DNA of 50,579 nt from Patescibacteria group bacterium (GTDB lineage Bacteria > Patescibacteriota > Patescibacteriia > UBA9570), in the NCBI GenBank assembly GCA_024277435.1, contig JAJRVJ010000007.1:1-50579 (forward strand). The letters run 5' to 3'. The notes below the pieces were generated by a model, which was given only the letters and a program-made list of their open reading frames with translations, was not told where the DNA came from and did not search any database. The position numbers were made by a program, and so were the translations under genes. This document shows positions 214 through 50,579 of the stretch, piece by piece (positions within the stretch are counted from its first letter, which is position 1; each line of letters opens with the position of its first letter).

Positions 214-1890
214 TTAAAGCGATTCTTCCATATAACACTGCTCGCAATACACCAGTTCTACCCTATCTGGACTATACGTAGTTTCGAACTCTTCTGAACA
301 TCTTCCCTTGTGATCATGCTCTGGCTGCGTACACATGCACTGGCCATGCCATAATTCTAGTGGATTACGTAATCGGAATCGTTCCTGATGACGACAAGCC
401 GGGCACTCCTCTGGTATAGGAATGTGAATTTTTTTATATACCTCCAATTCTTGAGGTACGATTTTATATCCTTTGCTACAATTCTCACACGTTAATACGT
501 GCTGTGTGATTTTCTCATCTACATCTTCAATACTATCAGGAATGATATATTCACTCTTTTGTCTACTTGCATCTGCGGAATTGTACCACTGCAATCCTCT
601 ACTCTTCACTTCCGATTCACTTAATGGCAACTGCTCTTGAGCAATCGTTTCATTATAGGCAAATGGAGAATTTTCTAATGGAAAAAAATCTCCCCACTCA
701 CCAGCCTCCTGCATGTTCTTTTGTATCTTCCCTACTAGCTTCTCATATTCATCTTTTGTATATTGCGTATTTAAAATACAGTACTCTTTCTTTTGTAGGG
801 AAATGCTACCGAAGCAGTTGCTTGAGTTAAATACAAAACTGCAGTAGCGTAGATTATTGCCATGCCAACATGAATCACAGGCAATGCAATCATACACACC
901 AGTGCAGCCTATGGTTTGATAACATAACTCGCACGTATCATACCCCATGCAATTCATATCCATGGAGGTATGTGTGTTATCAAGTTGAAACCCATAAGCA
1001 CAATCTTCCGAATCCGAGCAATCGAATGAATAGCGTAACCGTTGTGAATTTTGATGATTGGTTCCCTCACAATCTTCAGACTTGGTAATATAATATGCGC
1101 GAAACGGAAATTTCTTACGCACTTCGTTCATATACGTATCAAGGGCTTTTGCGAATCCTGTACGGGTATGTAGCTCAAGTTTTTCTAACTCTTTGAAGTA
1201 CTTCTCTTCTGTATAGGGTTTATTGAAAATATAATACTGCTTATTACGTAAGTTCGATGAAAACACACAATTGTTGCAGCCTTTAAGATCTACAGAAAAA
1301 TATGAATCTCTTACCGTATCGCAATGATCTAAATATACAGAATTATAGACATTTTTTGAAAACAAGCACTGATACGATAACTCACTTTGATACAGCCATA
1401 AATAGTCTAGACAATCGGTATTCTTTGTAGAATACCTACCATATAAACACCCTTCTTCATAATGGCTACCAAACGTAAGGTAGCAATTTTTATTCGCAAA
1501 CGAATAATTACAGTAATCACTATTCTCGGATTGCTTATTTAAAATTGCCAAGCGCGGCACGTTGTTTTGTAGTTCTGCGAATTGCTCAAAAAATGGACGC
1601 GATTCATCATACGTTTGCCCGTACATTAATGGATCCCATTTGTCACTCCAAAAACACTTCTGGCAATACACCAAAAACGGCGCCTCTTCTGGGTACATTG
1701 AAATAATTGCACCGCTACATAAATCACAAGCTCGCGCATACAGCGTACTTTCATTCCTCCACCCCAACCGATTCCGCCGCCTACACTGTACGCACAATGT
1801 TGGTTCTGGCGCATTCATCTTATCGTAAAATTCCTGATCATCTTTAGTAATCTGGAATGTTTTACTACATTGTTGGCATTGCTTATTCAT
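214..1890 (-). CDS. Multi-zinc-ribbon Cys/Tyr-rich protein A (CPR family)
   Basis: Predicted 558-aa cytoplasmic protein with no signal peptide. Ribbon 1 is C5-x2-C8 with C33-x2-C36. Ribbon 2 is C55-x2-C58 with C76-x2-C79. A long Cys/Tyr/Asn-rich middle follows, built of two halves that each end in a motif like LRNKxYYIxNKxYTxEEY. Another CxxC pair lies near the C terminus, then a closing block with CMCTQP, an H-D-H stretch and CEQC. The family is common in Patescibacteria and is often labelled hypothetical, or wrongly CaiB/BaiF; its function is unknown. I chose the ATG at 1890 rather than an upstream ATG at 1923 because it aligns with the paralogues and lies one base after the stop of gene B, which suggests translational coupling. 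Metal binding is inferred from the paired CxxC knuckles. Confidence 0.85.
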   Translation of the reverse strand: MNKQCQQCSKTFQITKDDQEFYDKMNAPEPTLCVQCRRRNRLGWRNESTLYARACDLCSGAIISMYPEEAPFLVYCQKCFWSDKWDPLMYGQTYDESRPFFEQFAELQNNVPRLAILNKQSENSDYCNYSFANKNCYLTFGSHYEEGCLYGRYSTKNTDCLDYLWLYQSELSYQCLFSKNVYNSVYLDHCDTVRDSYFSVDLKGCNNCVFSSNLRNKQYYIFNKPYTEEKYFKELEKLELHTRTGFAKALDTYMNEVRKKFPFRAYYITKSEDCEGTNHQNSQRLRYSFDCSDSEDCAYGFQLDNTHTSMDMNCMGYDTCELCYQTIGCTGVYDCIACDSCWHGNNLRYCSFVFNSSNCFGSISLQKKEYCILNTQYTKDEYEKLVGKIQKNMQEAGEWGDFFPLENSPFAYNETIAQEQLPLSESEVKSRGLQWYNSADASRQKSEYIIPDSIEDVDEKITQHVLTCENCSKGYKIVPQELEVYKKIHIPIPEECPACRHQERFRLRNPLELWHGQCMCTQPEHDHKGRCSEEFETTYSPDRVELVYCEQCYMEESL

Positions 1891-1891
1891 A

Positions 1892-3568
1892 TTAATATGC
1901 TTCTTGTTTATAACATTCGCCACAGTATATCATCTCCTTACGCTCCGGATCATACGTGGTTTCAAATTCAGAGTCGCACTGCTTAGCTCCGTGTACATGC
2001 TCTGGCTGTGTGCACATACACTGGCGTTGCCATAAGTTACGTGGATTTCGCAAACTGGAGCGTCATTGAAAGCGACAGCGTGGACATTTGCGTGCCACTG
2101 GCATGCTCATTTTTTCATACATACTGCGCTCTATGGACATAATTTTGAATGTAATACTACAATCTATACATGTAATTGGTTGTGACCAATGATTCTCATT
2201 CATATCCTCTAACATATCTGGTAACTCATTAACAACGGCATTGCTAACAGACTGCACTACCTCATCATTCCAAGCATAACCAGCCTGCACAGCAACTTCT
2301 TTACTAAGTGGGAAATACGATTGCGCAGCCGATTCATTATATGCAAATGGTGCGAGATCAACGCGAAAAAAATCTCCCCACTCACCCATCTTCTTCATAT
2401 GTTCTGTAATTCGTTGAACAAGTATTTTGTACTCTTCTTCACTGTATTTTTTATTCAGAATCACAAAGCTCTCTTTACGTAAACCAATAGAACCAAAGAT
2501 GTCGTGTGAATTCATTACGATTTCTGAATAATCTACATTGTATGAATCAATAACAAATGAGGAGCACCTAATATTTGTAGATTGATATGTTGAAATAGAA
2601 TTGAACACCCGCTCTGCTCCATGACCTAATAATGTGGAATTGAAGCAATCTTTGGCCTTAGTTCCAAAAATAATATTCTCTAATTGGTCACAATCCGAAA
2701 CATCAAAACAATTTATACATCTGTTGGAACTAGTAATATAGTCACCAGTACTATCGTGCGCATTTACGTTATGCGCATATTTCACAACTCGCTTGCTAAG
2801 CAACTTTTTATACTCTGTAATATATTTCTGTAAATTATCATAGCTACCATTAAATATTTCCGCCTTCTTCTTCTCGTACTCGGCTTTAGTATATGGTTCA
2901 TTTAAAATGTAATGTGAAACATTTCGCAAATTAACAGACAAAATACATTCCGATACGCCCGAACAATCGTTGATAAAATAACTATCTCGACAATTCTGCG
3001 AATTAAACGCAAACCAGCATCCATAACAATTACTAACATCAGAAGACATGTAGCAGAGTTCAGAATCATTCGTATAATCGCAATCCATAATATCACGATT
3101 ACGCATAGAAAGCTGTCCATACAAGGCATTCTCATTTAAATCACCGCCAAATATGAGGTAGCAATTCTTATTCCCATAGGAAGAGTGACAATAATCACTA
3201 TTTTCAGCATTAATATTCATGAGCGCTGCGCGGGGTACAACACTCTGTAGTTCTCGATACTGCTCGAAGAACGGACGAGCGAAATCTATCTCTCTTCCGT
3301 ATTCTAATGGATCCCATTCATCACTACTCCAAACCGCTGGATCATATACAGGAAATGGCGCATCCTCGCTATAGATAGATACTATCTGTTTGCCAGAACT
3401 ATCACAGGTCCGCTTTCGTAGAGACCATTCACCACTAAATAACAAATGTTGTTTTTGCATACATTCAAAACAACATTTCCCAACCGGCATTACAAACTGA
3501 TCTACGGCCTGCTGAAGCTGCTCACTCACCGAAAAGGTTTTACTACATTGTGTGCATTGTGTATTCAT
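1892..3568 (-). CDS. Multi-zinc-ribbon protein B, interrupted by an in-frame TGA
   Basis: Paralogue of A and C. A standard reading stops at TGA 2063-2065 after 501 codons, just after the CxxC knuckle CPRC. Translation in the same frame continues without a gap through the family's closing block (LRNP, CMCTQP, then CGEC) to TAA at 1892-1894, which would give 558 residues. The paralogues have Glu or Asn where the TGA stands. Ribbon 1 is present (CTQC and CFEC). Ribbon 2 is reduced to one Cys with no second CxxC, as in gene C. The start ATG overlaps the TAA of gene C by one base (TAATG). The TGA may be a nonsense mutation, a sequence error or a readthrough site. The last 57 codons still look conserved, so any loss is recent. 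Confidence 0.75.
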
Positions 3569-5256
3569 TAGTACATTTCTTTGTTATAGCAATCCTTGCA
3601 GTATACTATCTCCTTGCGTTCCGGATCATAACTAGTTTCAAATTTATTAGCGCATCTACCATCGTGTTTTTTATGATCTGGCTGAGTGCACATACACTGC
3701 CTTTCCCAAAGGCGGCGAGGATTACGTAGCTTTACTCGATTCAAATGCCGACAATCTGGACACTTACGTGGTAGCGCAATACCAACATGTTTGTATAATT
3801 GAACTTCCTGTGGAATTATTCGAAAATTCTTGTCACACGTTCCGCAAATAAATACTTCTTTAGTAATGGAATTATCAATAGCATGAATGTCATCAGGCAC
3901 ATTTTCTGGTATAACAGTTTCCTTCCCGTAGCTCCCGCCTGTATCCTCTCGCCAGTTCCATCCATTGCGCTTCACATCATCTTTGCTTAATGGATAATAT
4001 TCAGGGGCGATGGTTTCATTATAGCCAAATGGTGATATTTCATGAGGGAAAAATTCTCCCCACTCACCAGTTTCTTTCATGTGTTCAATAATCTTACCTC
4101 GTAGTTGTTCATATTCTTGCGCAGTGTACTGTTTGTTAAGAATCACGTGTTTTTGTTTACTTAAGCCAACACTTCCGAAGATATTATCACACCCTTTTAC
4201 ACAATAGGTATTATATTCTGAATTATTCGGCCCGTCCTCTATCCACATACTAAATTTATTGTTATATCCTACGGGTCCAAAATTTGCTTCATAAAACAAC
4301 TCTCCCAACCCTACAGCATAGGCATCCATACCATCCTTTGCTCTTAATGGTGCGTAGGTAATAAACTTTAAATCCTCACTTTCCCGTACATCAAAGCTCA
4401 ACTTACAATTATTACTATTCCAAATATAATTTCCGGTTGAGTTTTCTGAATTATATACTGCATTATATAACCGAGGTATCTTTAAACTTGTTTCATATGC
4501 CTTCTTTATTGCTTCCGTTAACTCATTATGCGAACTCAACATTTCTGGCACTCGTTTCTCCCATTCCTCTTTTGTTACGGATTTGTTATAAATGTAATAT
4601 TCTTTGTTACGCAATCCTGAACAGCCAAAAATATATTTACTACCAGAGCAATCATAGGATAAATACGCATTCATGCAATTGCTACATTGTTGGCAATATG
4701 CGCTGCTATACATTTTATCGGAATCTATACATTCAATTGCAAGTTCAGAATTCTCTACCGCCATGCAATCTGCGATTGATCTACAACCAATAGATATATT
4801 GCAATAAAATGCATTCTCCGATTTATCTGTAGCACTATTCATGTAAGAGTCCTTCAAACGATAGCAACAGTGATTATAATCTGAATTTTCAGATTCTAGC
4901 AACCATAATGCTGGATGCGGTACTTCATACATCAATTCAGCATATTGTTCAAAAAATGATCGCGAGAAATCAAAGTCTCGCCCATACTCTAATGCTGACC
5001 ACTTATCACTAAACCAATCACGCGTATTGTACACTCGTTTAATTGGTCCATCTGCAGAGTATATAGTTACCAGATCTTTTCCAGTGAGATCGCATTTCCG
5101 TTGATAAAACACTCGCTCATTACGAAATACATACCGCCGCTGCGCCCGACAATCCGGACACAAGGTAGGGGTTGGTACTTCCATCTTTTTGTAAAAGGCT
5201 TTGTCACTCTCTTCAATTCGAAAGCTTTTACTACATTGGATACATTGCTTATTCAT
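3568..5256 (-). CDS. Multi-zinc-ribbon protein C
   Basis: Intact 562-aa member of the family. Ribbon 1 is CIQC with CPDC. Ribbon 2 has only the CDLTG half, followed by VYNTRDW instead of a second CxxC. The Cys/Tyr-rich middle has two copies of the LRNKEYYI-type closing motif. The C-terminal part has CGTC with CPDC, then CMCTQP, an HKKHDGRC stretch and CKDC. It is the first gene of the A-B-C run: C ends in TAATG shared with B, and B ends one base before A. A -10 box TATACT lies 8 bases before the ATG, so the transcript may be almost leaderless. Function unknown; protein or nucleic-acid binding through zinc ribbons is inference. Confidence 0.85.
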   Translation of the reverse strand: MNKQCIQCSKSFRIEESDKAFYKKMEVPTPTLCPDCRAQRRYVFRNERVFYQRKCDLTGKDLVTIYSADGPIKRVYNTRDWFSDKWSALEYGRDFDFSRSFFEQYAELMYEVPHPALWLLESENSDYNHCCYRLKDSYMNSATDKSENAFYCNISIGCRSIADCMAVENSELAIECIDSDKMYSSAYCQQCSNCMNAYLSYDCSGSKYIFGCSGLRNKEYYIYNKSVTKEEWEKRVPEMLSSHNELTEAIKKAYETSLKIPRLYNAVYNSENSTGNYIWNSNNCKLSFDVRESEDLKFITYAPLRAKDGMDAYAVGLGELFYEANFGPVGYNNKFSMWIEDGPNNSEYNTYCVKGCDNIFGSVGLSKQKHVILNKQYTAQEYEQLRGKIIEHMKETGEWGEFFPHEISPFGYNETIAPEYYPLSKDDVKRNGWNWREDTGGSYGKETVIPENVPDDIHAIDNSITKEVFICGTCDKNFRIIPQEVQLYKHVGIALPRKCPDCRHLNRVKLRNPRRLWERQCMCTQPDHKKHDGRCANKFETSYDPERKEIVYCKDCYNKEMY

Positions 5257-5264
5257 GAATGTTT

Positions 5265-5270
5265 AGTATA
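5265..5270 (-). promoter_or_regulatory. -10 box of the C-B-A zinc-ribbon run
   Basis: TATACT on the minus strand ends 8 bases before the ATG of gene C. No clear -35 box is visible at the expected distance. The position predicts a 5' leader of only a few bases. Confidence 0.55.
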
Positions 5271-5277
5271 CGATACA

Positions 5278-5385
5278 TTAGCTAAAAAATGGTATTACAA
5301 CACCGTGAGCAAAGAACCCAATACCAAGGGTAGCAAGAGCTGCAATTGTGCCATAGATTTTGTAGGTGATTTTCTTTTCGTCCAT
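5278..5385 (-). CDS. 35-aa single-pass membrane peptide
   Basis: A short ORF starts MDEKKITYKIYG and continues into a hydrophobic stretch that fits one transmembrane helix, ending in PFFS. It is flanked by a terminator upstream (5411-5440). A -10-like TATAAT lies about 10 bases before its ATG, so the leader would be very short, and there is no Shine-Dalgarno sequence. It lies between the TrmB-like regulator and zinc-ribbon gene C, and the -10 of gene C lies at its 3' end. I do not recognise a family. Its standing as a gene rests on the promoter, the clean N-in charged head plus helix design, and a similar small ORF after secA. Confidence 0.5.
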   Translation of the reverse strand: MDEKKITYKIYGTIAALATLGIGFFAHGVVIPFFS

Positions 5386-5410
5386 ATATTTGGTGATTAT
5401 ATATGTTAAT

Positions 5411-5440
5411 TAAAAACAGCGCAGTTACATGCGCTGTTTA
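5411..5440 (-). terminator. Terminator of the TrmB-like regulator
   Basis: A 9-bp perfect stem (5414-5422 with 5431-5439) with an 8-base loop is followed on the minus strand by a T run. It lies 25 bases past the stop of the regulator and separates it from the 35-aa ORF. Confidence 0.8.
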
Positions 5441-5464
5441 GCATGTTAACTTTGAGATAGTATC

Positions 5465-6241
5465 CTATTGTATGTCGTACATCTTATTCCAAAGCGTATA
5501 GAATATTCTGGAGTGATGATTTGCAAGTTCTTTACTGCGAACAGTAATGGCAAATAGCTCCTTGCCAGGAAAAATGAATGCCGTGGTGTCTGCATACACC
5601 ATCTGCTCAATCGTAGCACCGAGCTTCATTTGCACGGATTCTGGAAAAATATCTTGGATAATTTTGCGGTCTAATGAGTACGAACCTGTTTTTTCTAAAA
5701 TCATCTTGTGATGAATGCCTTTTTCTTCACACCGCTGAGCTACCTCTTCAAGATACTCAACATAGCGCTCTCCCATGGCTGGAGCAAGATCAACAGCAGA
5801 TAATGTGAGAATATCATCACCTTTTTTTGTAGCGGTAAGGGCTTGATCCCAAATTTTAGTAACCGCTTCACGCGCCCGATAATAATGCACTTCTAAATCT
5901 TCAGGCACACTTGCATACAGCACATTAAGTTCACCAATAAGGTTTGGTAAATTACTAGCTAGCTTATCCATATCCTTGCGATTATCTTCGAATAAGGAGA
6001 GTAGCTTTGCTGGCTTGGCCACTTTGCATTTCTGGCCATAGCTCCGCACATCCATATCCGCCATACCTTGCCGGTTAAGCGACTTATAAATATTGTAGCC
6101 ACTCATGCGCGATAACCCCGCTCGTTCTGCAATCTGCGGTATTGTAGCAAGTCCTAGCTCCAGACCAGCCACATAGAATTTAATTTCGTTCTCTGAAAGA
6201 CCGAGTTGTAAAAGATCTTTTTTAAACTTTGATTTCAGCAT
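5465..6241 (-). CDS. TrmB-like winged-helix transcriptional regulator
   Basis: 258 aa. The N-terminal 60-70 residues match the TrmB-type HTH: a leading LGLSENEIKFYVAGLELG helix, then TIPQIAERAGLS as helix-turn and RMSGYNIYKSLNRQG as recognition helix. A short helical linker (about residues 75-105) and a C-terminal effector or dimer domain of about 150 residues follow. TrmB family members are sugar- or effector-responsive regulators, best known in archaea; the ligand here is unknown. It lies inside the zinc-ribbon array, and its upstream region shares two sequence elements with that of zinc-ribbon gene E, so it probably controls itself and that gene. It has its own promoter and terminator. Confidence 0.8.
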   Translation of the reverse strand: MLKSKFKKDLLQLGLSENEIKFYVAGLELGLATIPQIAERAGLSRMSGYNIYKSLNRQGMADMDVRSYGQKCKVAKPAKLLSLFEDNRKDMDKLASNLPNLIGELNVLYASVPEDLEVHYYRAREAVTKIWDQALTATKKGDDILTLSAVDLAPAMGERYVEYLEEVAQRCEEKGIHHKMILEKTGSYSLDRKIIQDIFPESVQMKLGATIEQMVYADTTAFIFPGKELFAITVRSKELANHHSRIFYTLWNKMYDIQ

Positions 6242-6250
6242 ACCTTATGT

Positions 6251-6340
6251 CTAAACGTGGTCAAACGGCTTTATATTTTCGCACGGGATAAGTTAAATAC
6301 TATACTAATGTTAGTATAATTTTGAAAGTGAAGATGTCAA
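6251..6340 (-). promoter_or_regulatory. Promoter and candidate operators of the TrmB-like gene
   Basis: On the minus strand TTGACA (6335-6340) lies 16 bases before TATACT (6313-6318). The -10 overlaps a palindrome at 6301-6318 with 8-bp arms TATACTAA/TTAGTATA and a 2-base centre. Nearer the gene, 6251-6277 holds a block containing GTTTGAC and GTTTAGAC ten bases apart. Both elements recur upstream of zinc-ribbon gene E (9822-9909) in the same order, and the TTGACA-to-palindrome distance is conserved (20 versus 19 bases). An operator overlapping the -10 is what autorepression would look like. Confidence 0.6.
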
Positions 6341-6411
6341 CTTTAATTATACTACAAAACTGATATTTTTCAATTCAAAACATCATACACGCGTTTATTA
6401 GCGCAGCACAA

Positions 6412-6471
6412 GCTTGGGTTTCATCCAGGAACGACTTAGCGAAGCGTTAAGTGAGTGGATGAGGCTCAAGC
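6412..6471. repeat. Long imperfect hairpin between gene D and the regulator promoter
   Basis: The arms GCTTG (6412-6416) and CAAGC (6467-6471) open a roughly 60-base imperfect stem that includes TCATCCA with TGGATGA and an inner ACTTA/TAAGT pair. It lies just past the stop of zinc-ribbon gene D. It has no clear U run, so it may be a weak terminator, an mRNA 3' end structure or a small palindromic repeat element. Confidence 0.5.
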
Positions 6472-6486
6472 GATATAGCAATTAAA

Positions 6487-8159
6487 CTAGTTCAATTCCT
6501 TTTGATAACACTCCTCGCAATATACAAGCGCGGGATTTTTGTCTGAATAACTCGTTTCAAACTCACGCGAGCACCTCTCACTGCTATGGTCATGTTTTGG
6601 CTGTGTGCACATACACTGGCGATGCCATAAAGCGCGCGGATTATGTTGTTTTAAACGATTCATGTGCCTACAATTAAAGCACTCATGTGGTAATGGTGCG
6701 CCAGTTTGGCGATACAACTCTAATTCACGTTTTACTATCTTGTAACTCTTCTTGCACTGTTCACAAGTAAGAAAGTTTTCTAACACATCATCTTTCACTG
6801 TTTCAATGTTATCCGGAATGCGATACTGACTATACTTAATATCCTTATCCTCAACATCTCGCCAACGCCAATCATTAGATTCCACATCGGTTTTCTGTAA
6901 TGGAAAATTATCTTGGGCAGCAGTTTCATTATAGGCAAATGGTGAAACCGTCACTGGAAAAAACTCGCCATACTCCCCTGTTTCCTCCATATGCTCTACA
7001 AGCTTTTCTTTTAATTCTGCGTATTCCTCTGGAGTATATTGTGTATTTAAAATACAGTGCTTGGCGTTTTGTAAACCAATACAACCAAATACGTTTTCTA
7101 CTTGTTTTACAGAATCACAGTACTGCGAATCCTTACCACCATAAAAGGCCACTACAAACTGAGAGTTATACGCCTCTAGTGCCCCCACCATTTCATAGCC
7201 AAGTTCTGAATGATCCACATTTACATAGCCATCATAACAATCCTTTACCTGATTACCGTGCGTAATAAATTTACAATCCTCTATCTCGTAACTTTCATAA
7301 CAATCATACGAATTACTGGAACGCTCAATATAGTCACCTGAAAACTTTTCATTATTTAATCCATGATAGTACTTAAACGTATGGCGTTTTTTTAACTCTG
7401 CAAATTCTTCTTTTAATTTTTGAATTGCTGAATAACTACTTGTTCGTAATTTTTCTATTTTTTCTTATACTCTTCTTGCGAAAGTTGCTTGTTACGCCAT
7501 ACATACTCTTGATTGCGCAACCCGTACGACATAAAACAATCGCGTGAACCCTTGCAATCAATAAGAAACATAGAGGAATTACAGTTATGTGAATCTATCG
7601 AATGCTTTACATCATAACAATTACTACAACCAATGTTGTCGTAACATAACTCATTCTTATTACAATTCAACAAATCTAATGAACTTACAGTATTGTAAAT
7701 GCCATAGGAATATAATGAATCTTCATTATGATCACTCACAAATATCATGTAGCAATCTTTATTACTTTGGCTACCATTAGTATATTCTGAGTTTTCGTTA
7801 TTTACTACAAGTGCATATACGCGTGGCACTTTAAGTTGTAATTCTTTAAACTGTTCAAAAAATGGTTTGGAAAAATCAATCTCCTGCACATAATCCTGTG
7901 CGTTCCATTTATCCGAATAGTAGCATTCGTAACAATAGATAGTATACGGCGAATCTGCTTGATATAACGAAATAATTCCCTTCTCACACATATCACATGT
8001 TCGTGAATATAACGTACGTTCGTTACGCCACACAAGCCTGCGCTGATCCCTGCAGGTTGGGCACAGCTCCGGTTGCGGTACATATATTTTGTTATAAAAC
8101 TCCTGGTCACCATCTGTGATTTCAAATGTTTTACTACATTGTTTGCATCGTTTCTTCAT
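6487..8159 (-). pseudogene. Multi-zinc-ribbon protein D, split by a one-base frameshift
   Basis: Two in-register pieces of one family member. The first runs from ATG 8159 to TAG 7455-7457. The second reads from the same point in the -1 frame to TAG at 6487. The break is in a run of six A (minus strand) at 7458-7463; seven A would restore one protein of about 557 aa. Across the junction translation continues as family sequence (EEYKKK then IEKLRTSS), and the second half holds CEQC, CFNC, CMCTQP and CEEC. Ribbons 1 and 2 are complete (CKQC, CPTC, CDMC, CYEC). The ATG lies one base after the stop of gene E. The cause could be a sequencing indel in the homopolymer, slippage that is used in the cell, or early decay. 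Confidence 0.75.
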
Positions 8160-8160
8160 A

Positions 8161-9753
8161 TTAATACATACTTTTCTTATAACATTCTTCACAATACACG
8201 TTTTCAGGAGCGGACTCTGCGTAGGTTGTATCAAATTCATTCAAGCACTGCGCGGAATGATCATGATCAGTCTGCTTACACATACATTGCCTATTCCATA
8301 ATTGACGTGGATTACGATAACTCATACGCGTTTGATGTCGCTTCTCTGGATGCTCAATTGGTTCTGGAAGCCCCAGTGCCTCATAAAAAACTTTTTCAGG
8401 CTTCGTGAGATTAAATGACTTCGCAAGCTTCTCATCGGCTTCGTCATTCCATTCTACTCCCAGTGCAGTGGCCTCTACTTTTGTAAGTGGAAAGTATTCA
8501 TGCGCAACTGTATCGTTATACGCAAATAATGAATGCTTCATATCTGGCAGCTCTCCATATTCTCCATCAGCTTTCATTTTTTCTATCACTTTCTCGCGCA
8601 GCTCTTTATATTCTTCCGGAGAATATTGCTTATTCAAAATCATATTTTCTTTACCACGCACACAGGAAGAAAGCATGAGATTTTTAGAATTATGCACTTG
8701 GTCACAGTACTGCGAATCGCTTGTATAATATGCAAACACGCTATATTGCACATTGTAACATTGCAGCATACTCAAGCTGTCGTATACCAACTCTGGTTGA
8801 TAATATACAAACGATGCATCATAGGTATCACGTGGATCGAGCGCATCGGTAACATAACTACTATCTTGCCCGCCAGTAACGTCATACGATTCATACACTC
8901 TCTTGCAATTCGTTAATACATCACCGGTACAGTCTGGGCTTTTAATATTGCTCGCATACCTCACTACTCTGCCTTTTGCAAGGTCACGCCACTGCTTAAT
9001 GCATTCTTTAATTGACGCAGCATCTTTCATTAATTCTGCCATGCGCTGATGGTACTCCTCTTTTGGAACAGGTTGGTTAGAAATATAATATTCTTTATTA
9101 TGTAAATTAGAGCTCAAAAATACATTATTACACCCACGTAATCCTGTAGAAAAACCGCAATCACGAACATTCTCACAATCCTCTAAATACACACTACTAT
9201 AGCAATTACGAATATTAATTGATCCATAGCATAATTCGGAATCGTATGTATAACTACAATCAAAACAATCCTTACAGTTCTGCACTAACTTTCCGTATGA
9301 GCAATTTTCGTTATTCTCTGCAGCAAACAATAAGTAGCAATCTTTATTATCTGCCGACATATTTGTATACTCGGAGTTCTCACTATTCAAATTTACAAGA
9401 GCTAATCGAGGAACAGTTCTACGTAATTCATTCCACTGATCTATTAATGAACGATTCCAATCTATCTCCTTGCCATAATCAGCTGGATCCCAGTTATCTC
9501 TCCACCAACAATCATTACAATACACAACAAAATCATGCTTAGGATTATATATTGAAAGTATTTGCTTTTTACATAAACCACACGCTGTTGAAAACAAAGC
9601 GCGCTCATTACGATAGGCCATACGATTTTGCATACGGCAGACTGGACACAGCGTTGGATGCGGCGCACTTACTTTGCTATAAAATTTTTGATCATACTCG
9701 GTAATTGTAAATGTATTGTTACAGCGTCTGCACTCTGATATTACTTCTGGCAT
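8161..9753 (-). CDS. Multi-zinc-ribbon protein E (degenerate C-terminal ribbon)
   Basis: Intact 530-aa paralogue and first gene of the E-D run. Ribbon 1 is CRRC with CPVC, ribbon 2 is CGLC with CNDC. The Cys/Tyr-rich middle is present with its closing motifs. The C-terminal ribbon found in A, C and D has lost all its cysteines: the positions of the two CxxC knuckles read KSFNL and HPEKRHQ, while the flanking RNPRQLW, CMCKQ and CEEC blocks remain. Upstream is a long control region shared in part with the TrmB-like regulator. Function unknown. The missing knuckles suggest the C-terminal ribbon is dispensable or specialised in this copy. Confidence 0.85.
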   Translation of the reverse strand: MPEVISECRRCNNTFTITEYDQKFYSKVSAPHPTLCPVCRMQNRMAYRNERALFSTACGLCKKQILSIYNPKHDFVVYCNDCWWRDNWDPADYGKEIDWNRSLIDQWNELRRTVPRLALVNLNSENSEYTNMSADNKDCYLLFAAENNENCSYGKLVQNCKDCFDCSYTYDSELCYGSINIRNCYSSVYLEDCENVRDCGFSTGLRGCNNVFLSSNLHNKEYYISNQPVPKEEYHQRMAELMKDAASIKECIKQWRDLAKGRVVRYASNIKSPDCTGDVLTNCKRVYESYDVTGGQDSSYVTDALDPRDTYDASFVYYQPELVYDSLSMLQCYNVQYSVFAYYTSDSQYCDQVHNSKNLMLSSCVRGKENMILNKQYSPEEYKELREKVIEKMKADGEYGELPDMKHSLFAYNDTVAHEYFPLTKVEATALGVEWNDEADEKLAKSFNLTKPEKVFYEALGLPEPIEHPEKRHQTRMSYRNPRQLWNRQCMCKQTDHDHSAQCLNEFDTTYAESAPENVYCEECYKKSMY

Positions 9754-9821
9754 GCGAGAATATAGTTAATAATCGTGCTATGTAGTAGCTTAGAATAGCG
9801 TAGCCTTAGTATATATACCAC

Positions 9822-9909
9822 CAAAACGTAGTCAAACGGTATTATATTTTTTAGTACTTTTCCTGATTTTTAATCTAACATTAGCGAAATATGAAATGCC
9901 TAATGTCAA
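9822..9909 (-). promoter_or_regulatory. Control region of zinc-ribbon gene E
   Basis: 9822-9848 matches 6251-6277 upstream of the regulator at about 23 of 27 positions, keeping the CGTTTGAC core and its second GTTT ten bases on. CTAACATTAG (9875-9884) is the same palindrome as at 6305-6314, and TTGACA (minus strand, 9904-9909) stands at nearly the same distance. A second possible promoter inside the block is TTGACT with a downstream TATACT, 16 bases apart. This looks like a regulon motif, most simply bound by the neighbouring TrmB-like protein. Confidence 0.55.
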
Positions 9910-9926
9910 CTGAATTTATACTATGA

Positions 9927-14212: not shown

Positions 14213-15763
14213 TTACGCGAACGGTAAATTAGATGGTGGAGCTGGCTCAGATTCATCAACTGGTGGAGCGGCTTGTGGTTGCTGTGGTTGAATAGGTGCT
14301 CCAGGTTGAACTATAGGCTGTGCGCCCGGTTGCACACTAGGTTGCACCACGCCTTCTGGCACTACATTAACTGAAGGTGGAGCGGTCTCGTTAAAAGGAA
14401 TATTTTGAAATTGCACTCCACTAACTCCGCCATCCTGAAATAATCCACGCCCTTCATAATTAAGTTGCGTAGGAGGTTCAACACCACGACTAGTAGCCTT
14501 ACTTACAAATGGAGCACGTACTTCCATTTGTGGGAAGTGAAATATACTCGCCAACTCTTCTGTGTTCAGTACAAATCCATCATGCTCACCACGCGACATA
14601 TCACGAGATTGATAGGCCCAAAGCATGCGCCGCGCCCGCTTACGTGTACGTGGAATAGGGCGAATTTTTCTCCAGAATAATGCACCAGGATCTATTTTTA
14701 CCAGGGAGCCCTCTATAAACCAGTTAATAAATCGGAATTGCTGTAATGCTCCTAACATACCACGACGCCCCAATGTGTAATTAAATTTATTTGGCTCTGC
14801 AAAATACATCCATCGAATTTTTGTATTATATGGCCAGCGTGACATTTTTCTATCAACTTCTTGAACAAATTCTCGCTCTGGATCAGTTAAACGCTGCCGC
14901 TCGGGAAGCCGATCACTAACGGTTGCAGTACCATAATCCCCTGGCCAAATTTGGTCATGTACCGCGCCAAGTACCTGAACCGGTGCAATAATGGCTTTAT
15001 CCAAAACCGTATCAGGAGTTTTAGCTGCTCCACCTGGCTCTACAATATCATCAATAGCTTTTTGGGCCCGCTCTCGAAACGCGTCAGCATTCATTGGTTG
15101 CGCTAATATTTGTAACCACCACTCTTCTCCAGGTTGGAGCCTACTCATCATTTCTAAAATAGAAGCCAACGGATCCACTGCTACACCCGCTAAATTATGT
15201 TCCCAAGCTGGCCACGATTTAATTGGCATAATATCATCATTCGCTAATTTGAGCTCACTTCCATATATAGATACTTCATCATTCATGATCTGATCAACCG
15301 TATAATCATGAGAGTAGTCTTCTACTTCCGTAAGAAGCGCATCTGGATATTGCGCATAGAATGCCGCTAGTAACATTTCTTTATGTGCTTCCGGACCGCG
15401 TACATAAAAATCTATATACCCTCCCCTACTTACTATTTCTAATGCAAACGGTGGTTGCACAAATCCCAGCCAATATTTTTCTTCAAAATTAGGATCATCT
15501 TGTGAACCGTATAAATGTACAAAAATCTGCTCAACGGCCTTCATGCTCTGTTCATGTAACTGCGGAACTTGAATTTGATACATCACATATTTCGTACGGA
15601 TTTTAAACCGCTCCTGAATATACTGCACATACCCTTTCCAACCATAATAGATCATCGTTGGGGTAAGAATAAGAAACCCTAAGCCATGGCTAAACATGAA
15701 CCAAAGGGCTTCAAACGGATTACTACCGTATTCACGTATGATTTCTTCTAATAGTGGTGGCAT
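14213..15763 (-). CDS. Membrane-anchored partner of the VirD4-like ATPase
   Basis: 516 aa. One hydrophobic segment near the N terminus (about residues 18-40, ending YYGWKGY) anchors a large cytoplasmic part; the last 90 or so residues are Pro/Gln/Val-rich and probably disordered. It ends 6 bases before the ATPase start and begins with an ATG overlapping the previous TAA (TAATG), so the sigma4/HARE gene, this gene and the ATPase form a tight operon. In my experience of Patescibacteria this protein and the ATPase tend to occur side by side. It may be the membrane platform the ATPase lacks. I cannot name the family. Confidence 0.6.
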   Translation of the reverse strand: MPPLLEEIIREYGSNPFEALWFMFSHGLGFLILTPTMIYYGWKGYVQYIQERFKIRTKYVMYQIQVPQLHEQSMKAVEQIFVHLYGSQDDPNFEEKYWLGFVQPPFALEIVSRGGYIDFYVRGPEAHKEMLLAAFYAQYPDALLTEVEDYSHDYTVDQIMNDEVSIYGSELKLANDDIMPIKSWPAWEHNLAGVAVDPLASILEMMSRLQPGEEWWLQILAQPMNADAFRERAQKAIDDIVEPGGAAKTPDTVLDKAIIAPVQVLGAVHDQIWPGDYGTATVSDRLPERQRLTDPEREFVQEVDRKMSRWPYNTKIRWMYFAEPNKFNYTLGRRGMLGALQQFRFINWFIEGSLVKIDPGALFWRKIRPIPRTRKRARRMLWAYQSRDMSRGEHDGFVLNTEELASIFHFPQMEVRAPFVSKATSRGVEPPTQLNYEGRGLFQDGGVSGVQFQNIPFNETAPPSVNVVPEGVVQPSVQPGAQPIVQPGAPIQPQQPQAAPPVDESEPAPPSNLPFA

Positions 15764-16908
15764 TATTGTGTTGGCTCAATCTGCGTTGCTAATGTATAGC
15801 GCCCGTCAGCTAATTTAGTGAACCGCTTTTTATTGGTAAGTGCTAGATGGATGGTATTTTTCTTTACAATGCGTTGCTTAAGAACAGCTTGAACGATTTG
15901 ATTACGCGTAAGCGGTTCGGTGCGATCTTCTAAAATTTGCTCAATCACATCAGATACTACACCACGCTTATATCCCCATTCTTTAAGTGCATAAATACCT
16001 CTACCAACTAATACGTAATGTTTATTCAAAATCAATTCATTATGTACGGTTGGTGGATAGGCTTCTTTTTTAAAAATTTCTGTAATTTTTTTAGCAATGT
16101 CAACGAAATGCATAGGTTTACCAATCTTTTTCAAGATCAGATAAATCTTATCATTCATACGCTTCGGTACTACACTCCCCCATTTTTGCAAACCATACTC
16201 ATCAAAAGGATTGCGAGCCAACGCTTTACTTATCTCAAGATAGGACATTATTATTTCTTGATTCAAACAGTTTTCGTTCTGCTTAAAAAAACTGTGTTCG
16301 CGAGCTTTGCTATACAGAGTTATTAAATCCAATGGTTGATCCGCCTCTTTTATAATATCTTTTAACATCATAATAGTAGAGCGTACAAAATCAAGATCCG
16401 TTGTTTTTACCTTCCATGATTTTACAAATTCACGATTAGGTGAAACTTTATCGAATCGAAAATCAATCAATTCAGATAGAATAAATATTAGTGCCTGTTG
16501 CTCCGCTAGACTCTGACTCACTGTAAAAAGTTCTTCAGCAAGATGCTGTTCACTCATAATTCCACCATACTCCTCCAAAACACTCATAATAACCTGCTCA
16601 ACTGGTCGGATCAGATTATTAAATTCAGTATCTTCTTTAATTTTCTTAATGGCTAAATTCTCAATCTGACGAATGCGCTCACGAGTAACCTTGTAAGAAT
16701 TACCAATTGCCTCAAGCGTCTCCTTTGGATGATCTCCAAGACCATAACGCCTTTGCAATACATCCGCCTCCTTAGATGATAGCTTTTTTAGCAGTACAGA
16801 AATAACATCCTCAGGATCGAATTCACGCTTCGCCTGATCGTCTTTACTGGCAATTATTTTGTCTAATATTGAATTATTTCCGGTATGAACCTCTGACTCG
16901 TCTGACAT
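15763..16908 (-). CDS. Sigma-70 region 4 protein with HARE-like HTH domains
   Basis: 381 aa. Residues of about 38-90 match sigma region 4.2: LSSKEADVLQRRYGLG, ETLEAIG, then VTRERIRQIENLAIKKI, the -35-recognising helix-turn-helix. Sigma regions 1-3 are absent. The rest is helical. Residues of about 250-320 (KIGKPMHFVDIAKKI, ending YVLVGRGIYALKEWG) resemble a HARE-HTH/RpoE-delta winged helix, followed by another small winged helix ending in DGRYTLA. It may be a transcription regulator that touches RNA polymerase or DNA rather than a full sigma factor. It leads an operon with the membrane protein and the VirD4-like ATPase, from a strong promoter at 16955-16983. Confidence 0.75.
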   Translation of the reverse strand: MSDESEVHTGNNSILDKIIASKDDQAKREFDPEDVISVLLKKLSSKEADVLQRRYGLGDHPKETLEAIGNSYKVTRERIRQIENLAIKKIKEDTEFNNLIRPVEQVIMSVLEEYGGIMSEQHLAEELFTVSQSLAEQQALIFILSELIDFRFDKVSPNREFVKSWKVKTTDLDFVRSTIMMLKDIIKEADQPLDLITLYSKAREHSFFKQNENCLNQEIIMSYLEISKALARNPFDEYGLQKWGSVVPKRMNDKIYLILKKIGKPMHFVDIAKKITEIFKKEAYPPTVHNELILNKHYVLVGRGIYALKEWGYKRGVVSDVIEQILEDRTEPLTRNQIVQAVLKQRIVKKNTIHLALTNKKRFTKLADGRYTLATQIEPTQ

Positions 16909-50154: not shown

Positions 50155-50493
50155 ATGCGAAATCTTTTCGCTCTCTTGGTCGGCATTTGCCTGGCCTTCA
50201 CCCCTGCGTCCGCGATGGCGCAGGATTCCAACAACCCCAACCCCCCGGAGACCAATGTCGAGCTGAGCGGTGACTGCGCCGATGGCGTCGACAACGACAA
50301 CGACGGCAAGGTCGACAATCTCGACCCCGGCTGCCACGATGGCGACGGGCTGGAGACCGAGAACTACGCGTCTCCGGCCGAACGTCGTGCTGCGGAGAAG
50401 GCTCTCAAGCTGGCCCGCAAGGAAGCCACGCAAGAGGGTCCGAGACCGTTTCATTTTGGGCGCGTAAAAAGTCGTTTTCTCTGCTATGATTAG
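50155..50493 (+). CDS. GC-rich secreted protein fragment with a Ca-binding-type DGxDNDxDG motif
   Basis: 112 codons. A signal peptide (MRNLFALLVGICLAFTPAS, cleaved after AMA) leads to a Pro/Asn-rich stretch, then CADGVDNDNDGKVDNLDPGC, a thrombospondin type 3-like or dockerin-like calcium loop. A charged helix follows. GGAG lies 6 bases before the ATG at 50155; an in-frame ATG at 50125 is less likely. GC content is far above that of the window. The last 15 codons fall in the terminal repeat (from 50441), so the natural C terminus is lost. It is probably a foreign gene joined to the repeat, like the island at 21763-23045. Confidence 0.55.
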   Translation: MRNLFALLVGICLAFTPASAMAQDSNNPNPPETNVELSGDCADGVDNDNDGKVDNLDPGCHDGDGLETENYASPAERRAAEKALKLARKEATQEGPRPFHFGRVKSRFLCYD

Positions 50494-50579
50494 CTTCAAA
50501 TACATTGTTTAACCTGTTAAGAAGCTAATTATGATAAAAAAAACGAAACAATCCTTATTGTCCAAAGTGCGCTAATCCA
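50441..50579. repeat. Right copy of 139-bp terminal inverted repeat
   Basis: Reverse complement of 2-140, with no mismatch seen by eye. It begins within the GC-rich secreted-protein frame and runs to the last base. Because it is inverted, it does not show that the molecule is circular. Confidence 0.9.

Follow-up and report, generated by a model that had tools for sequence, protein, structure and literature searches.

The looping repressors of the lac, gal and ara systems use twin operators that resemble each other, spaced by a whole number of helical turns, with one of them on the core promoter. The archaeal chromatin protein TrmBL2 coats DNA broadly. In the archaeal TrmB family, autoregulation is known or proposed, the described operators being TACTN3AGTA, TATCACN5GTGATA and TACTN7-8GAGTA, and the position of the site decides the effect: on the promoter or beyond it the proteins repress, upstream of it they activate (PMC4158304). 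Literature searches found no papers on TrmB in Patescibacteria/CPR, and in the papers searched there was no regulator described for zf_Tbcl (PF13451) genes and nothing on the zinc-ribbon gene family treated here.

The window (the whole analysed stretch of 50,579 nucleotides) comes from a Patescibacteria genome of 1,326,506 bases (1.33 Mb) in 34 contigs. It contains a cluster on the minus strand with the gene order E-D-regulator-C-B-A, E being the first gene. Two copies of a composite operator-promoter element probably join the regulator gene and the zinc-ribbon operon in one local autoregulated regulon, with a TrmBL2-like protein controlling both. The genes concerned are the following.

5465 to 6241, minus strand: TrmB-like regulator of 258 aa, the candidate binder, with TrmBL2-like length and fold
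8161 to 9753, minus strand: zinc-ribbon gene E, zf_Tbcl family, 530 aa, first gene of the cluster
214 to 5256, minus strand: zf_Tbcl-family genes C (3568 to 5256), B (2063 to 3568) and A (214 to 1923), downstream of the regulator

The zinc-ribbon proteins comprise about 530-560 aa, with treble-clef ends and a Cys-rich middle, and the Pfam zf_Tbcl (PF13451) match was above the cut-off in genes E and D. The predicted structure of E (pLDDT 82) gave no match among solved structures. Across the window (214 to 9753) and its relatives the family is lineage-expanded, with Cys-rich members of 500-620 aa, up to about 20 per genome, often directly beside a gene for a TraD/VirD4-like ATPase. Gene D (window 7219 to 7464) is open in two frames (7455 to 8171 and the 6487 to 7218 side), broken near a T-run at about 7460, and its orthologue in G001 (L068:975-2645) is a single open frame. 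Gene B stops at a TGA (2063) and its C-terminal zinc ribbon continues at 1892 to 2053 (window 1892 to 2063), which may reflect a pseudogene, an error or read-through.

Two further features were identified in the window. The contig ends (about 57 to 130 and 50450 to 50579) carry inverted copies of a repeat around GCTAATCATAGC, also present at the ends of contigs L131, L135, L148, L152 and L154; this is a dispersed repeat that broke the assembly. Near SecD/SecF, the protein encoded at 15763 to 16908 has an RpoD region 4-like start and further on a match to RNA polymerase delta (HARE-HTH-like), forming an unusual sigma/delta-like fusion.

The regulator contains an N-terminal winged-helix TrmB domain (PF01978; 33.4 bits against a Pfam cut-off of 25.6), the same DNA-binding domain family as in the archaeal proteins TrmB, TrmBL1/Tgr and VNG1451C, with which the locus also shares palindromic sites. 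Its nearest solved relatives in the PDB are TrmB and TrmBL2. The predicted fold (pLDDT 86.7) has TrmBL2 as its best Foldseek match (5bpd, E 1.9e-13), the nearest full-length solved structure, of 264 aa, although identity to the regulator is only about 17%. The C-terminal half resembles a PLD-like fold (Foldseek). There is no Pfam match to PF11495, the C-terminal sugar/effector-binding domain of archaeal TrmB, so that the sugar-binding domain of the archaeal proteins of about 340 aa is missing here. Among named relatives, the nearest one identified was a 'Candidatus Kerfeldbacteria' assembly, with 78% identity in the regulator. TrmB-like genes were also identified near zinc-ribbon genes in G052 and G084, and in G008, from another family, a different TrmB-like gene is divergent from the adjoining zinc-ribbon gene (C60, L082:2620-2859); CTAACTTTAG lies between these two genes and is the only such palindrome in the 46 kb read of that genome.

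The element comprises about 115 bp and is present in both upstream regions: site 1 (TATAA-N6-TTGACAT), a palindrome (CTAA-NN-TTAG), site 3 (TATAA-N6-TTGACYACG) and then a TANNNT hexamer. Compared among relatives, it spans from TAGTATAA through TTGACAT, the palindrome and TTTGACYACG to TANNNT. The blocks in the window are as follows.

6333 to 6352, minus strand: site 1 at the regulator, GTATAATTAAAGTTGACATC; its TTGACA (6340 to 6335) is also the -35 of candidate promoter P1; conserved in 12 elements
6305 to 6314, minus strand: palindrome at the regulator, CTAACATTAG; overlaps the -10/+1 of P1
6253 to 6276, minus strand: site 3 at the regulator, ATATAAAGCCGTTTGACCACGTTT; 24 nt from TTTGAC to ATG
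9902 to 9921, minus strand: site 1 at gene E, GTATAAATTCAGTTGACATT
9875 to 9884, minus strand: palindrome at gene E, CTAATGTTAG; 25 bp start to start from TTGACA
9824 to 9847, minus strand: site 3 at gene E, ATATAATACCGTTTGACTACGTTT; its TTGACT (9835 to 9830) is the -35 of promoter P2

Sites 1 and 3 are of the same type, TATAA (or TCTAA, TAAAA), six bases and then TTKAC, with an identity of 10.1/19 in register and 3.8-7.2 when shifted. The spacing is invariant in the 12 elements known, 25+49 or 26+50 bp, both gaps changing together; site 1 is thus 74 bp from site 3 (palindrome at 25) or 76 bp (palindrome at 26), about seven helical turns. A strict 17-bp dyad, GTMAA-N7-TTKAC, was considered for sites 1 and 3 and kept only as a hint, being perfect in two G005 copies alone and elsewhere formed by 2-4 of 5 pairs.

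An earlier note on this DNA had described a two-part element. Its likeness of 6251 to 6277 and 9822 to 9848 was recovered at 23 of 27 positions, its palindromes were located at 6305 to 6314 and 9875 to 9884, 20 and 19 bases from a TTGACA, and the order and spacing are indeed kept between both regions, the conserved part reaching further upstream to TAGTATAA. The element has three parts, however, and its TTGACA lies in a site of the kind that also holds GTTTGAC. The nearest genera retain the second GTTT (YACGTTT), which the more distant genome G005 lacks. An 18-bp palindrome overlapping the -10 does occur at this regulator, where it extends to TATACTAACATTAGTATA, but the extension and the overlapped TATACT are private to this genome, and the overlap of a -10 with the palindrome is found in some regulator copies only.

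The archaeal operators differ from CTAANNTTAG and the twin TATAA-N6-TTKAC sites identified here, and the promoter is a bacterial sigma70 one. The known archaeal TrmB operator motifs were sought in the element and not found: the regulator copy has TACT-N6-AGTA, and the other copies lack it. TrmBL2 coats DNA broadly, as opposed to the two specific sites predicted in this genome. As in lac, gal and ara, the like sites are separated by whole helical turns and one of them coincides with the core promoter; the differences are a third, palindromic site at a fixed place between them, a candidate regulator of an unrelated protein family and a loop that is hypothetical here.

Within the genome the element is highly specific. 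The core CCGTTTGACYACGTTT, with up to 2 mismatches, was identified only at these two places in 1,326,506 bases (4 matches for a reversed control pattern); the random scatter that the earlier note named as counting against its proposal is thus not seen. A model built from ten elements of other genomes returned exactly the two window sites genome-wide, with E-values of 5.6e-17 and 6.9e-13, the next-best match having 0.03. Short pieces like CTAA-NN-TTAG are frequent, which would favour a chance likeness of two AT-rich upstream regions, but these E-values, obtained from a model made without the window, refute such a likeness, whose probability is close to nil. The same element is therefore found in front of the regulator and its target genes and is absent elsewhere in the genome; genes C, B and A have no copy in front of any of them.

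Palindrome and promoter counts were made on 625 kb of the 1.33-Mb genome (about half). The palindrome alone was ruled out as the regulon signal, its 22 copies in this sample being not specific. In intergenic DNA it is about eight times as frequent as expected (16 copies against 1.9), some of these resembling terminators, and it may have a second, wider role or be used by other factors.

In other genomes, a three-block weight matrix from five copies identified six more with the same spacing, real sites scoring 18-85 and the best Markov-shuffled control 9.6. A sequence-only covariance model gave 12 strong matches (43-75 bits) among 95 genomes, followed by noise at about 20 bits, and the same 12 elements were returned from 381 genomes of the class, none elsewhere. 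All belong to five genomes of one order. Five lie just upstream of a regulator orthologue and seven upstream of a zf_Tbcl gene, so that the element is conserved in front of orthologues of both genes, a point on which the earlier note had staked its proposal. The element-bearing zinc-ribbon genes are E or the first gene of its operon in G000-G003, to which G001 adds a further one and G005 two; the twelfth element (G001:C60), which the first training set did not include, stands before a zinc-ribbon gene as well. In G001 and G003 contig ends divide the E gene, and coding sequence and gene order suggest that C22 pairs with C67 and C11 with C26.

Close relatives of the regulator were identified only in G000-G003 (77-100% identity), plus a start fragment in G005 comprising the first 45 or so aa, cut by the contig end and 71% identical over 35 residues. 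The G003 orthologue (L067:3287-4085) is split over two frames, 3311-3628 and 3627-4079. The zinc-ribbon family occurs in 24 of the 381 genomes and the element in exactly the five with a regulator orthologue, a co-occurrence that is not phylogenetically independent because the carriers are related genomes of one order; the 19 others have the family without element or orthologue. The regulator's own gene carries the element in all five.

Since the element is found only at the regulator and the zinc-ribbon cluster and is conserved in four relatives with the regulator, sequence comparison makes it very probable that the element is the switch of a small gene set that regulates itself, in uncultured bacteria of ultra-small size. 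The earlier note's proposal of an autoregulated regulon with a shared control element is well supported, both by this conservation and because element and regulator orthologue occur in exactly the same genomes; the TrmB-like protein is the putative binder. In an alternative that appears unlikely, the operator-promoter is real and shared, but another DNA-binding protein binds it and the TrmB-like regulator is merely a target. There are two site types, the 16-17 bp twins and the palindrome, and at least one may belong to another protein, and the intergenic excess of the palindrome extends beyond the regulon. Against this, the element accompanies the regulator orthologue exactly, in 5 of the 24 genomes with the zinc-ribbon family, and in each of the five the targets include the gene of the regulator itself. 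These favour the TrmB-like protein as the putative binder.

The two regions could also be ordinary sigma70 promoters that are alike through copying of one upstream region, with no specific regulator. P2 alone does resemble the normal TTGACN-16/17-TANNNT promoters of this genome, but those ordinary promoters do not fit the model built without the window, and no core promoter at the zinc-ribbon genes takes in site 1 or the palindrome. The spacers between blocks are unrelated, yet the blocks and their distances are kept across genera and two families. Copying is thus very unlikely, and a regulated operator-promoter is the preferred reading.

The promoters of the element are the following.

9808 to 9813, minus strand: P2 -10 of gene E, TATACT, in TTGACT-16-TATACT (10/12)
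6237 to 6242, minus strand: P2 -10-like hexamer at the regulator, TATGCT, overlapping the regulator start codon
6313 to 6318, minus strand: candidate P1 -10, TATACT, in TTGACA-16-TATACT (11/12)

A TANNNT hexamer 16-17 nt after the TTGACY of site 3 was identified in 12 of 12 elements, in agreement with a sigma70 promoter (-35 TTGACN, 16-18 nt, TANNNT), and because of it the TTGAC of site 3 is taken as the -35 of core promoter P2 at the zinc-ribbon genes. In the regulator copies the P2 hexamer touches the start codon or shares bases with it, so P2 cannot give a full-length message there. The best candidates for the regulator in this genome are TTGACA-16-TATACT (P1) and TTGAAA-16-TATAAT, P1 being the likely promoter. 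Points against this model include the uneven P1 -10, a good one in this genome and G001 but weak in G002 and G003 and lacking in G005, and the conservation of a P2-like hexamer over the regulator start codon. A general pairing of TTGACA (-35) with the palindrome serving as its -10 across the copies was ruled out, there being no conserved -10 at 15-19 nt.

A leaderless signature was identified in the 625 kb: 15 genes have a sigma70 -10 ending 5-9 nt before the start codon, with 2.1 expected and a maximum of 6 in 40 shuffles. Judged from sequence, leaderless promoters of the form TTGACA-17-TATACT are frequent in this genome, with the start codon 5-9 nt after the -10. In five zinc-ribbon copies the P2 -10 lies 6, 6, 9, 9 and 11 nt from the start codon, and most simply P2 would mostly yield leaderless zinc-ribbon mRNAs. 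Exceptions are G005C10a (27 nt) and gene E, which is not leaderless because 54 nt separate its P2 -10 from the ATG. An upstream open reading frame from the TTG in site 3 was ruled out, its frame to the ATG not being conserved.

A conserved RNA leader, either a riboswitch or a protein-binding 5' UTR, has hardly any probability. Transcription starting upstream of site 1, as from the regulator candidate TTGAAA-16-TATAAT, would place the sites and the palindrome in the 5' UTR; the zinc-ribbon genes, however, have a good promoter inside the element and start codons at leaderless distance. No conserved RNA fold of the element was found (0 pairs across 11 sequences) and no match in Rfam, and the leader was rejected on both counts.

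In the proposed mechanism, the TrmB-like protein would bind the palindrome and/or the twin sites, would repress its own P1 by covering the -10 at the palindrome, and would act on P2 from about -80 and -112, through activation or through repression by a twin-site loop. Applying the position rule of archaeal TrmB proteins (PMC4158304), binding at the palindrome would repress P1 and binding upstream would possibly activate P2; both the site bound and the choice between activation and repression at P2 are thus put forward by analogy. More speculatively, and with a rather low probability, the TrmBL2-like protein may recognise twin sites with the -35 consensus built in (TATAA-N6-TTGAC), the second of them on the core promoter, the first seven helical turns upstream of it and the palindrome at a fixed position in between; a defined nucleoprotein loop would then switch between the protein's own P1 and the leaderless P2 of the lineage-expanded zinc-ribbon family.

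The candidate phyla radiation is almost wholly uncultured and very little is known of its gene regulation. What emerges is a defined element of 115 bp, with a named candidate regulator and a regulon of two promoters, along with evidence from sequence that leaderless sigma70 promoters are used in this lineage. If true, the loop between twin sites that embed the -35 would give the candidate phyla radiation a new promoter architecture. The finding also links an expanded zinc-ribbon family that had no explanation to a specific switch.
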